From positions 186,001 through 250,000 of the forward strand of contig NZ_QFFF01000002.1 of the NCBI RefSeq assembly GCF_003129465.1: a stretch of 64,000 nt of DNA, given 5' to 3'. This DNA is from Sphingosinicella humi. GTDB lineage: Bacteria > Pseudomonadota > Alphaproteobacteria > Sphingomonadales > Sphingomonadaceae. A program made the translations under genes and the position numbers. Positions 2,996 through 51,912 of this stretch are shown piece by piece; within the stretch, counting starts at the first letter, position 1; every line of letters starts with the position of its first letter. The notes beneath the pieces are model-generated. The model was not told the origin of the DNA, searched no databases, and was given only the letters and a program-made list of their open reading frames with translations.

Positions 2996-3072
2996 CGTTC
3001 GTCCCGAGCGAAGTCGAGGGGCGTATGTGATGAGTCCGTGCCAGCGCCCCTCGACTACGCTCGGGACGAACG
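2996..3072. repeat. REPIN-like inverted repeat, family A copy 1
   Basis: Two 28-bp arms in inverted orientation (2996-3023, beginning CGTTCGTCCCGAGCG, and 3045-3072) around a 21-bp loop in the gatA-gatB spacer. The same arms occur at 41097-41199 and at 50619-50695. The loop here matches the 50619 copy at 18 of 21 positions, so the whole ~77-bp unit, not just the arm, is repeated. Confidence 0.85.
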
Positions 3073-3094: not shown

Positions 3095-4576
3095 TCACCA
3101 CCATGCCTCCGGACGGGCCTTGAAGCCGGCCCGCTCCTCGAAGGCCAATCCCGCGTTTAGCACGCCCTGCTCGTCCAGCGCCTTGCCGATGATCTGGAGG
3201 CCGAGCGGCAGGCCCTGCTGATCGAGGCCGGCGGGGACCGACATGGCGGGCAGGCCGGCGAGGCTGGCGGGAACGGCGAAGACGTCGTTCAGATACATGG
3301 CGATGGGGTCGTTCGATTTCTCGCCCAGCGCGAAGGCGGCGGACGGCGCCGTCGGCGTCAGGAGAAGGTCGCAATCCTGCCAGACCCGCTCGAAATCGCG
3401 GGCGATGAGCGCCCTCACCTTCTGCGCCTGATTGAAATAGGCGTCGTAGAAGCCGGCCGAAAGCACATAGGTGCCGATCATGATGCGGCGCTTCACCTCG
3501 GCGCCGAAGCCGGCGGCGCGGGTAGCGTTGTACATGTCGTCCAGGCTGCCATGGTCGGGCGCGCGGCGCTGACCGTAGCGGACGCCGTCATAGCGGGCGA
3601 GGTTGGACGACGCCTCGGCGGGAGCGATGATGTAATAGGTCGGGAGCGCGTACTGGGTGTGCGGCAGCGACACCTCGACGATCTCGGCGCCGGCATCCCT
3701 CATCCATTCGATGCCCTGATCCCAGACCTTGCCGATCTCCTCGGGAATGCCGTCGATGCGATATTCCTTCGGAATGCCGATCCGCTTGCCCTTGATATCG
3801 CTGGAAAGATTCGCCTCCCACTTGGGCACCGGCAGGTCGAGCGAGGTGGAATCCTTGGGATCGAAGCCGCTCATCACTTCCAGCATGGCGGCGCAGTCGC
3901 GAACGTCCTGGGCCATCGGCCCCGCCTGATCGAGCGAGGAGGCGAAGGCGACCATGCCGTAACGCGAGCAGCGGCCGTAGGTCGGCTTGATGCCGGTGAT
4001 GCCGGTGAAGGCGGCGGGCTGGCGGATCGAGCCGCCGGTGTCGGTGCCGGTGACGCCCGGCGCGATGCGCGCCGCGACGGCGGCCGCCGAGCCGCCCGAG
4101 GAGCCGCCCGGCGTCAGCGGCGCATTGCCGCCGTCCTTGCGCCGCCACGGCGAGATGACGTTGCCGAAGGCGCTGGTCTCGTTCGACGAGCCCATGGCGA
4201 ACTCGTCCATGTTGAGCTTGCCGAGCATGCCCGCGCCGGCGGCGAGCAGCTTGCCGCTGACCGTGGACTCATAAGGCGGCGTGAAGCCTTCCAGCATGCG
4301 GCTGCCGGCGGTGGTCTGGTGGCCCTTGGTCGCGAACAGGTCCTTGATGCCGAGCGGCACGCCCGAGAGCGGGCGAAGCTTGCCCTCGGCGCGCTCGCGG
4401 TCCGCCTCCTCGGCGGCGGCGATGGCGTGCTCGGGCGTCTCAATGACGAAGGCGTTGAGGCCCCTCGCCTTCTCGACGGCGGAAACGAAGGCGTCGGCGA
4501 CTTCGCGGGCGGAGAAACTGCCCTCGCGCACTCCGTCGCGGATCGCCGCGACGCCGAGATCGGTCAGATTGGTCAC
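3095..4576 (-). CDS. gatA: Asp-tRNA(Asn)/Glu-tRNA(Gln) amidotransferase subunit A
   Basis: GatA, the glutaminase subunit of GatCAB, which releases ammonia from glutamine for tRNA-dependent amidation. The 493-residue product shows the amidase-signature triad: Lys in [14 protein letters not shown], cis-Ser in [15 protein letters not shown] and the nucleophile Ser in [14 protein letters not shown]. The start is GTG at 4576, whose G is also the last base of the gatC stop codon (TAGTG), so translation is probably coupled. An open frame continues upstream through gatC but resembles nothing and was not used. Confidence 0.96.
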
Positions 4577-49344: not shown

Positions 49345-49676
49345 CGGCCCTGCATATTGTGAGCGCCCCCCGGCATCCTCACGGTGAGGCTGTCTAGGTC
49401 ATCTCTCGTCCACACTTGGCAGGCAAGGCGCGAATGGCGGGTGACGTGGAGGGCAAGGTCGAGCATGTCTTCCTCTTCCTCGCTCGCAGGCGGGAGCTTG
49501 GCGAAGTCTTCAGCCTCGACGACGACGTGGCAGGTGGAGCAGGCCATCTGCCCCTCGCAGGTGCCTTCGAGCGGCTGCCCGTCGGCCTGGGCGATGTCGA
49601 GCAGGCGCTCGCCGGGAGGGGCATCGACCTCGCGGACGTCCGAACCGTCTGCGGAGATGAAGCGGATGCGGGTCAC
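49341..49676 (-). CDS. 2Fe-2S ferredoxin (adrenodoxin/ISC type)
   Basis: A 111-residue [2Fe-2S] ferredoxin with cluster cysteines in GTCEGQMACSTCHVVV and the fourth in SRLACQVW. Acidic patch EEEEDMLDLA. It is an electron donor, possibly for Fe-S assembly since the two genes upstream are cysteine desulfurases. The stop lies within the SRP RNA promoter; the start overlaps the desulfurase stop by four bases. Confidence 0.93.
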   Translation of the reverse strand: MTRIRFISADGSDVREVDAPPGERLLDIAQADGQPLEGTCEGQMACSTCHVVVEAEDFAKLPPASEEEEDMLDLALHVTRHSRLACQVWTRDDLDSLTVRMPGGAHNMQGR

Positions 49677-50863
49677 GCGGCGAAGCTCCGTTGACGCTCG
49701 GCCGCCTGCTCGATCAAGCCGAGCGCCTCATCCAATTCCTCTTCGGTCGTGTAGCGGCCGAAGCCCAGGCGAAGGCTGGACCGGGCTTGGCGATCGTCGA
49801 GACCGAGCGCGGCGAGGACATGGCTGGGCCGTCCGGAGCCGCTGGCGCAGGCGGAGCCGGCGGAGAAGGCCACCCGCCGCACTTCCGAGATCAGGCGGGC
49901 AACGTCGAGGCCGTCGCGGCGAATATTGAGATTGCCATGATATCGCTGCTCGGCCGAGCCGTTGAGGGTCCAGCCGTCGAGCCTAGACCGGGCTCGCCTC
50001 CACAAGCGCTCGACATGGGCATGGTCCTCCTCCCGACGCCGCGAAAGCAGGCGAGCGGCTTCGCCGAAGCCGACGCAGAGGGCGGGCGACAGCGTGCCGG
50101 AGCGGATGCCGCCCTCCTGCCCGCCGCCGTGGAGCAGCGGATCGATCGCGATACCGTCGCGGACCCACAGGGCGCCGATGCCCTTGGGACCGTGAACCTT
50201 GTGGCCGGAAATGGCGACCATGTCGCAGGCCTCCAGCGGAACGGCGGCGCGGCCATAGCCCTGGACCGCGTCGCAGAAGAGAAGCGCGCCTCGACTGCGG
50301 GCGAGAGCGGAGATTTCGGCGATCGGCTGGACGACTCCGATCTCGTTGTTCACCAGCATCGCCGCGACGAGTCCGGTGCGATCGTCGATGCGATCGGCGA
50401 CCTGGTTGAGGTCGACGATGCCATCCGGCTGGACGGGCAGGATGTCGATGTCGAAGCCTTGAGAGCCGAGCCATTCGACCGTGTCGAGAACGCAGGCATG
50501 CTCGGTGGCCAGGGTCAGTATTCGGCGCTTGTCGGCGGGGAGATGTGCCGCCGCGCCCTTGAGCGCCCAATTGGCGGCCTCGGTGGCGCCGGAGGTGAAG
50601 AAAAGCTTCCCAGGAACCGGTTCGCCCTGAGCGTAGTCGAGGGGCGTATGTGGCGAGTCCGTACCAGCGCCCCTCGACTTCGCTCGGGACGAACGGAGAG
50701 CTTCCAGAATATGCTCTCTCGCCACCTCGACCGCCGCCGCCGCTTCACGGCCGAGGCGGTGAGGACTGTGCGGATTGCCGAAATGGGTCTCCAGCCACGG
50801 ACGCATGGCGGCCGCGACTTCGGGGGCGAGCGGAGTGGTGGCTTGATAATCGAGATAGATCAT
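49673..50863 (-). CDS. Cysteine desulfurase carrying an in-frame palindromic-repeat insertion
   Basis: A 396-residue PLP cysteine desulfurase (NifS/IscS type) supplying persulfide sulfur for Fe-S clusters. YLDYQATTPLAP, FTSGATEAANWALKG, PLP Lys in ISGHKVHGPKGIG and the active Cys in GSACASGSGRPSHVL are intact. Residues about 57-82 ([11 protein letters not shown] to the run before GKLFFTSG) have no family counterpart and are the translation of a family A repeat (50619-50695). This stretch would form a surface extension before the GATE loop. It is coupled to the flanking genes by short overlaps. Confidence 0.93.
   Translation of the reverse strand: MIYLDYQATTPLAPEVAAAMRPWLETHFGNPHSPHRLGREAAAAVEVAREHILEALRSSRAKSRGAGTDSPHTPLDYAQGEPVPGKLFFTSGATEAANWALKGAAAHLPADKRRILTLATEHACVLDTVEWLGSQGFDIDILPVQPDGIVDLNQVADRIDDRTGLVAAMLVNNEIGVVQPIAEISALARSRGALLFCDAVQGYGRAAVPLEACDMVAISGHKVHGPKGIGALWVRDGIAIDPLLHGGGQEGGIRSGTLSPALCVGFGEAARLLSRRREEDHAHVERLWRRARSRLDGWTLNGSAEQRYHGNLNIRRDGLDVARLISEVRRVAFSAGSACASGSGRPSHVLAALGLDDRQARSSLRLGFGRYTTEEELDEALGLIEQAAERQRSFAA
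50619..50695. repeat. REPIN-like element, family A copy 3, inside the cysteine desulfurase gene
   Basis: Arms at 50619-50646 and 50668-50695 with a 21-base loop nearly identical to copy 1. It is read in frame as codons 57-82 of the desulfurase. Confidence 0.9.
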
Positions 50864-51912
50864 GCGGCGCGGCGTTTGGCGGCTATCCTGGTCCAGGCTC
50901 GGACGAAGCGGTCGACTTCCTGTGCGGTGGTGGAGGGACCGAAGCTCACCCGGACGACCTCCCGGGCGGCGGTTTCGTCCCAGCCCATGGCGGCAAGAAC
51001 GTGGCTCGGCTTCAAGCTGCCCGAGGAGCAGGCGCTCCCCGCCGAAACGGCGATGCCTGCCAGATCGAACTGGATGAGCTGGGCATTGGAGGGCACGCCC
51101 GGCATGCGATAGGCGCCGATGGTGGGAATCCGCGGCGAACCGGACGCCACGACTTCGCCGTCAGCGGCGACGAGCGCCGCTTCGAGCTGCTCGCGAAGCT
51201 CGGCAGCCTTGTCGATCCATCGGGGCGCGGCCTCCAACGCGGCCGCCATGGCGAGGATGCCGGGGAGATTTTCGGTTCCCGGCCGATAGCCCTGCTCCTG
51301 ACCGCCGACGGCCTCTATCAATCCGAAATCGCGCAGTAGCAGAGCCCCGACGCCCGGTGGCCCGCCGAATTTGTGGGCGGAGATGGCGATCATGTCGGCG
51401 TCCGGCAGCGACAGCTTGCCCGCAGTCTGGGCGCAATCGGCGAGGAGAATGCCGCCGTTCTCGCGCACCGCCTCGGCGATCTTGTCCAAAGGCTGCAGGA
51501 CGCCCGTTTCGTTGTTGGCGTGCTGGACGGCGACGAGCGGCCGTTCGCCATCCACACCCGTCGCATGGACCAACCCGGCCGGGCCGACCGGCAGCCTCAC
51601 CCCATTGGGAACGGCACGGAAAACCGCCTCATGCTCGACGGCCGACACATAGCAGGTCCCCGACTTGGCACGGCCGAGGGCGATGGCGAGCGCTTCGCTG
51701 GCGCCGGAGGTGAAGACGATCTTGCCCGTCCAGCCGAGCGCGGCGGCGATCCGCGTCCGGGCCTCCTCCAGTGCCGCCTTGGCCGCGCGGCCTTCCGCAT
51801 GCGGCGAGCTCGGATTGTGCCAGCGCGCCAGGGCCTCGGCCATGGCTTCGCGCGCCGCTGGGAGGAGCGGCGTGGTCGCGGCGTGATCGAGATAGGCGCG
51901 GGCTTCCGGCAC
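50860..51912 (-). CDS. Cysteine desulfurase family protein (second, shorter paralogue)
   Basis: A 350-residue PLP cysteine desulfurase. YLDHAATTPLLPAAREAM, KIVFTSGASEALAIAL, PLP Lys in ISAHKFGGPPGVGALLL and Cys in GSACSSGSLKPSHVL. It is about 40% shorter in loops than classic NifS and diverged from the neighbour. GTG 51912 has AGAGGA just upstream and is preferred to longer starts that would overlap the divergent promoter. First gene of a desulfurase-desulfurase-ferredoxin operon. Confidence 0.9.
   Translation of the reverse strand: MPEARAYLDHAATTPLLPAAREAMAEALARWHNPSSPHAEGRAAKAALEEARTRIAAALGWTGKIVFTSGASEALAIALGRAKSGTCYVSAVEHEAVFRAVPNGVRLPVGPAGLVHATGVDGERPLVAVQHANNETGVLQPLDKIAEAVRENGGILLADCAQTAGKLSLPDADMIAISAHKFGGPPGVGALLLRDFGLIEAVGGQEQGYRPGTENLPGILAMAAALEAAPRWIDKAAELREQLEAALVAADGEVVASGSPRIPTIGAYRMPGVPSNAQLIQFDLAGIAVSAGSACSSGSLKPSHVLAAMGWDETAAREVVRVSFGPSTTAQEVDRFVRAWTRIAAKRRAA

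Follow-up and report, generated by a model that had tools for sequence, protein, structure and literature searches.

We found that a CGTC-type REP head-to-head dimer lies in frame within a cysteine desulfurase gene of Sphingosinicella humi, and that the same loop of this enzyme holds CGTC dimers in nine species and unrelated palindromes of three types in three more, distributed over three neighbouring genera. Very probably this pattern reflects recurrent insertion filtered by tolerance, the insert being a near-neutral passenger and not an exaptation. The window, by which we mean the whole stretch of 64,000 nucleotides that was analysed, contains the following features:

50619–50695, minus strand: CGTC-type REP head-to-head dimer (REPIN-like) of 77 bp, coding for desulfurase residues 57–82
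2996–3072, plus strand: intergenic copy of the desulfurase REP dimer, matching in arms and loop
41098–41198, no strand assigned: pair of arms of the desulfurase unit in the opposite arrangement, from arm matches
49673–50863, minus strand: IscS/NifS-like cysteine desulfurase of 396 amino acids (Aminotran_5, PF00266), with the REP-derived loop inside
50860–51912, minus strand: paralogous desulfurase, adjacent to and upstream of the insert-bearing gene, insert-free at the matching loop
49341–49676, minus strand: 2Fe-2S ferredoxin-like ORF (Fer2, PF00111, 5e-10), downstream of the insert-bearing gene

The desulfurase frame is open throughout the unit, positions 50695 to 50619 reading as codons 57 to 82, just where an earlier note on this DNA had placed an in-frame, REPIN-like palindrome. 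That note had also counted 18 of 21 loop bases in common with the copy at 2996–3072, and this number is exact; the copy is intergenic by eye, flanked by a minus-strand start near 2978 and a stop near 3096. A 41-base core (TCGAGGGGC, loop, GCCCCTCGA) is found at two places in the window, 50637–50677 and, with three mismatches, 3014–3054, against a mean of 0.00 occurrences in shuffled windows, and the 20-base arm has six window matches at up to three mismatches where 0.06 would be expected. Across the 3.03 Mb genome the 77-bp unit has about 40 distinct places (80 both-strand matches, from scoring 40 of 79 candidates); a 13-base REP core occurs 90 times, its reversed control not at all, and grouping yields 65 REP places, five inexact ones included. 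The desulfurase loop DNA forms one long hairpin (fold z −6.1 against shuffles), and comparison of the insert with a consensus built from 64 copies of this genome shows five differing codons, three of them amino-acid changing. As described in PMC3733652, a CGTC REP consists of a CGTC (or TGTC/CCTC) tag and then a short palindrome with a 4–5 base loop. The arms of the desulfurase unit are CGTC with CCGAGCGAAGTCGAGG and CGCC with CTGAGCGTAGTCGAGG, the latter having a changed tag, and the unit thus has the tag and short palindrome of that source's written definition, with which it was compared.

Several observations indicate that the enzyme around the insert is conserved. It matches PF00266 at 1.1e-60, its model has human NFS1 and E. 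coli IscS among its best fold matches (TM about 0.88), and it has the class V aminotransferase fold, PLP lysine and active-site cysteine of the IscS/NifS enzymes. The earlier statement that the catalytic residues are kept can be extended to orthologues: H122, K222 and C339, the catalytic histidine, the PLP lysine and the catalytic (active-site) cysteine, do not vary among the 17 orthologues aligned, those with an insert among them. Estimates of dN/dS were 0.09–0.18 for six pairs, each including one or two carriers; with dS at 0.8–1.1 these are rough values, and the pairs G000/G018 and G025/G002 include insert codons (G numbers are our genome handles, G000 being the window's genome). Judging by dN/dS and the invariant catalytic residues, the enzyme around the insert stays under selection, and it is presumably translated and functional. 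The gene is tightly packed between its neighbours, as the paralogue stop overlaps the desulfurase start by four bases (ATGA) and the desulfurase stop overlaps the GTG start of the ferredoxin-like ORF by another four (GTGA); a frame-breaking insert in the desulfurase would probably uncouple the ferredoxin-like ORF.

The extra residues are confined to one place in the predicted fold. The best solved homologue covers query residues 2–54 and 84–392, with five residues in between where the present protein has 29. In an AlphaFold model built from 36 sequences (pLDDT 92.3), values below 50 occur only at residues 63–78, between helix 36–58 and strand 85–90; the REP-derived loop is thus probably an extended, disordered surface segment in this model, in line with the surface loop that the earlier note had suggested looking for.

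We then compared this loop among relatives. Of 26 genomes searched in the window's genus, 25 matched and 23 gave readable loops: CGTC dimers are present in G000, G018, G025 and G010, other palindromes in G002, G015 and G009, and no insert in 15. The desulfurase of G006 (locus L048) has about 22–30 extra residues at the same loop, of non-palindromic look, and was left unclassified. In the second genus (six searched, five read), CGTC dimers occur in G250, G165 and G211, the last with its frame broken at an NN gap, and none in G101 and G278; in the third (five of five read), G182 and G043 carry an insert, that of G043 being composite and only CGTC-like, and G226, G261 and G126 carry none. In other genera none of the 91 orthologues read, drawn from the best-matching rows among 391 matching genomes, carries an insert; these comprise 13 loci and 78 of 80 further regions, the other two being a contig end and an unreadable sequence. 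A scan of named genomes (best 80 matches) recovered 70 orthologue-type loops by pattern, the longest not exceeding 80 residues when counted from the start motif, compared with 85–121 residues in carriers. The paralogue loop is of constant length in all 82 distinct stretches caught by pattern, including 14 of the window's genus. Neither the paralogue nor the majority of orthologues has the insert, in agreement with the earlier note; the check that it had suggested, whether close relatives lack these residues, finds many without an insert and others with CGTC or unrelated palindromes at the same place.

The three unrelated elements are themselves repeated. The insert of G002, of CCGGCGTAGGCCGG type, has at least 43 own-genome matches on both strands (40 of 64 candidates scored), with near full-length copies in G025 and mostly single-arm matches in G000 (37), G022 (35) and G008 (4). 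That of G015, GGGGACATGTACTTGTACGTGTCCCC, has 15 both-strand matches at about eight own places and none in four other genomes. The insert of G009, AGTGACTGTCACT, which adds only about 3–11 residues, has 40 own-genome matches at up to one mismatch (exact sites counted on both strands), 17 in G015 and none in six other genomes, with one match for the reversed control. Fold z ranged from −4.3 to −10.5 against shuffles for G015 and the other CGTC-dimer loops, G211 standing outside this set; whole-loop folding was weak in G043 (−0.4), G002 (−1.6), G006 (−2.1) and G009 (−2.3).

Since the palindromes at this site belong to four unrelated types, at least four insertions are required. In a gene tree of 35 rows estimated with the loop removed, the CGTC label changes eight times, with six changes forced by well-supported branches, and the label for any insert changes ten times, again with six forced; each change may be a gain or a loss. 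This tree excludes a second G101 row, most of the 91 outgroup genomes, and the more distant genus orthologues G003, G004, G017 and G021 as well as G067 and G288, whose C-part could not be extracted. Over the 35 rows neither label clusters more than shuffled labels do. Carriers and empty sisters are paired in G250/G101 (support 99/97), G182/G226 (100/94) and G043/G261 (99/95), the sisters G025 and G002 hold different elements (100/100), and the sister of the window's species, G022, is empty, although this pairing has weak support (91/50). The window insert is 90–93% identical to its nearest own-genome copies and at most 84% identical to the desulfurase inserts of other species (68–78 bases). 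The G182 insert is likewise about 90% identical to own copies and at most 80% to others (73–83 bases), and the best match of the G211 insert is an own-genome copy (88%); for G018, G165, G250 and G025, each compared with 2–4 genomic copies selected for their resemblance to the G182 insert, own-genome copies are not clearly nearest, and the G165 insert is as close to the G018 desulfurase insert (86.7% over 75 bases) as to the closest genomic copy compared. The carrier/empty pairs and the closeness to own copies in two genomes suggest fairly recent movement.

RAYT-driven mobility in the window's genome is not supported: a Pfam search gave no Y1_Tnp (PF01797) match in G000, G025, G018 or G002, and the window's genome agrees in this with CGTC REPs, which have no associated tyrosine transposase. 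Across the genus a Y1_Tnp match is present in 11 of 26 genomes, including the REP-carrying G010, G003 and G015. CGTC REP cores number 90 in G000 and 73 in G025, both genomes being without a Y1_Tnp match.

The desulfurase is one of several genes of this genome that carry the element. Open frames run through 14 of the 65 REP places with coding-like sequence to either side, and in a search for in-frame copies at least 12 of the 65, the desulfurase included, lie in frame in Pfam-supported genes; Pfam gave no match for the other two candidates, which lie at 570188 and 161887 of contig 1. The check for copies inside genes that had been suggested thus yields at least 11 further decorated genes. Together the decorated genes encode two dihydrolipoamide acyltransferases, a short-chain dehydrogenase, a hydantoinase/oxoprolinase, HrpB, UvrA, methylmalonyl-CoA mutase, GlyS beta, a radical-SAM protein with a UPF0004 domain, CarA, a phage-type terminase large subunit and the desulfurase (loci besides the desulfurase and GlyS: L026, L262, L016, L268, L256, L269, L270, L277, L281 and L273). 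Inserts sit between Pfam domains or break up a single domain match. A conserved element peptide is not supported, as several readings are used among the in-frame REPs of this genome. With about 40 dimer places and 65 REP places, 12 of them in genes, the element resembles CGTC REPs in being mostly a head-to-head dimer with many, mostly intergenic copies. For a mostly coding genome, 12 of 65 is a strong deficit of in-gene REPs, as expected if selection removes most coding insertions.

GlyS beta, the only other gene traced across species, was matched in 25 of 26 genus genomes (loci L290–L313). For the loop after WLVEEG, 12 stretches were obtained from 17 loci, 11 of them with fold z between −4.3 and −9.0. 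This loop contains CGTC dimers in G000 and G011, a CCCTCTCCC palindrome in G021, G025, G017 and G009, a TCCTCCCC palindrome in G015, G014, G023 and G003, and a CCGGCGGAGGCCGG palindrome in G019, the non-CGTC classes having been sorted by eye; G018 has no insert. Aligned as protein, G002 shows an insert of CCCTCTCCC reading, G001, G004, G005, G007, G010, G016, G022 and G024 have none at the WLVEEG loop, and a second loop, before LSYT, is similarly variable. We therefore rejected the idea that the desulfurase loop is a unique site: with four palindrome types at one loop of GlyS beta, it is one among several recurrently colonised sites.

The best explanation for these results is that a CGTC-type REP dimer entered the desulfurase gene at a solvent-exposed loop, in a frame-preserving phase. 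Lying after the first long helix and ahead of the strand that precedes the FTSGATEA motif, this loop would tolerate added length, so that insertions into it would be spared by purifying selection, which would remove most others in coding sequence. Steady insertion by several palindromic families, combined with strong removal of harmful copies, would then fill the same few loops independently in many species. Tolerance, rather than targeting, is most likely the cause of the recurrence, and the insert itself is most likely near-neutral. The earlier note had called the element exapted, which would mean that the REP-encoded loop gained a function, for example a sulfur-acceptor contact, and was kept by selection. 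Its in-frame position in a conserved, operon-like gene would fit such a role, as would the recurrence of extra residues at this loop in 13 species, G006 included; sister species are nevertheless empty or hold unrelated sequence, the insert is predicted to be disordered, the element families have no peptide in common and there is no sign of a gained function, and we regard exaptation as very doubtful. An assembly or annotation artefact, or a pseudogene, is barely conceivable: G211 does have its NN gap and broken frame exactly at this loop, but the window's own assembly has four contigs and 100% completeness, the frame is intact in eight of the nine CGTC carriers, catalytic residues are kept and dN/dS is well below 1.

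One may postulate alternatives in which the number of insertions or their placement is read differently. A single older CGTC insertion, which some lineages then lost and which gene conversion with copies elsewhere in the genome may have homogenised, could account for the fact that in G000, G250 and G165, from two genera, the element begins at one and the same codon following a Leu, that six of nine CGTC carriers share the arm reading SRAKS, and that the G165 and G018 inserts are so alike. It is an improbable history all the same, as no orthologue read in other genera carries the insert, several sisters would need precise loss and the three non-CGTC elements would be left unexplained. The loop DNA, or an earlier palindrome within it, might instead draw palindromic elements, in which case the recurrence would be partly a mutation bias. 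The presence of four unrelated kinds of palindrome at a single site points in this direction, as do the composite inserts of G010 and G043, which look nested, the like behaviour of the GlyS loop, and the fact that G006 has the only non-palindromic insert of such size seen; insertion points and flanks vary from species to species, however, and the elements are present in many other genes of the genome too, which makes attraction possible but unlikely. We are similarly sceptical of the broader view that loops of housekeeping enzymes in the sphingomonad clade are true landing pads for unrelated palindrome families. Were it correct, attraction might act through nested insertion into earlier palindromes or through the local replication or transcription state, and elements that keep replacing each other would produce hypervariable protein segments from mobile DNA without a detectable Y1 transposase.

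Recurrent insertion into a tolerant loop, the reading we prefer, can be set against known palindromic systems. S. alaskensis and E. lithoralis are sphingomonads. Intragenic REPs of both are named in PMC3733652, and the earlier remark that such insertions are not commonly described for sphingomonad REPs does not hold. The same text describes CGTC REPs as prevalent in alphaproteobacteria, arranged as head-to-head dimers, with in-frame intragenic members and without a dedicated transposase, and it already proposes in outline that flexible linkers or loops make intragenic REPs neutral. The element studied here resembles those intragenic REPs in its CGTC-type ends, head-to-head dimer, alphaproteobacterial host, in-frame copies coding 20–30 residues and lack of a dedicated transposase; since in-frame CGTC REPs have been published there, the phenomenon itself is not new. 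Among the genes compared in PMC3733652, recB of two Xanthomonas species has REPs at about the same site and others of the category have them at different sites, unlike the present case of one loop, 12 species, four palindrome types and sister-species contrasts.

The likeness to Rickettsia palindromic elements that the earlier note had seen is supported, as RPE-4 and RPE-6 belong to the CGTC REPs according to PMC3733652. Like the Rickettsia elements described in PMC3767692 and PMC2229807, the present inserts are palindromic and lie in frame in conserved housekeeping genes at solvent-exposed sites, the exposure being taken from one model. RPE-1 is longer, and where PMC10969869 gives an ORF with a conserved peptide as a mark of these elements, the element of the window's genome is read in several ways. 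In R. japonica, all orthologues of the RPE-4 genes aligned in PMC3767692 have inserts at the same sites, a pattern that we read as shared descent, whereas desulfurase orthologues here are empty or differently filled. The two inverted REP arms round a short spacer and the many dispersed copies recall RAYT-mobilised GTAG REPINs, from which the present element differs in its CGTC-like ends and in the lack of a Y1_Tnp match in the genome. We found no report of one loop hit by several palindrome families in the open-licence PMC literature, the supplementary gene list of PMC3733652 aside. The step beyond published work is the recurrence of different elements at the same loop, which, with the further decorated genes, also goes beyond the earlier note.

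The desulfurase loop thereby offers a natural replicated experiment: different palindromes have lengthened it in sister species, and both empty orthologues and an untouched paralogue can serve for comparison. It makes testable whether CGTC REPs are still moving, and whether insertions that keep the frame are clutter of no effect or supply material for protein change. For annotation the finding carries a warning, as unusual insertions in sphingomonad enzymes, reaching about 45 residues in length, can derive from mobile DNA.
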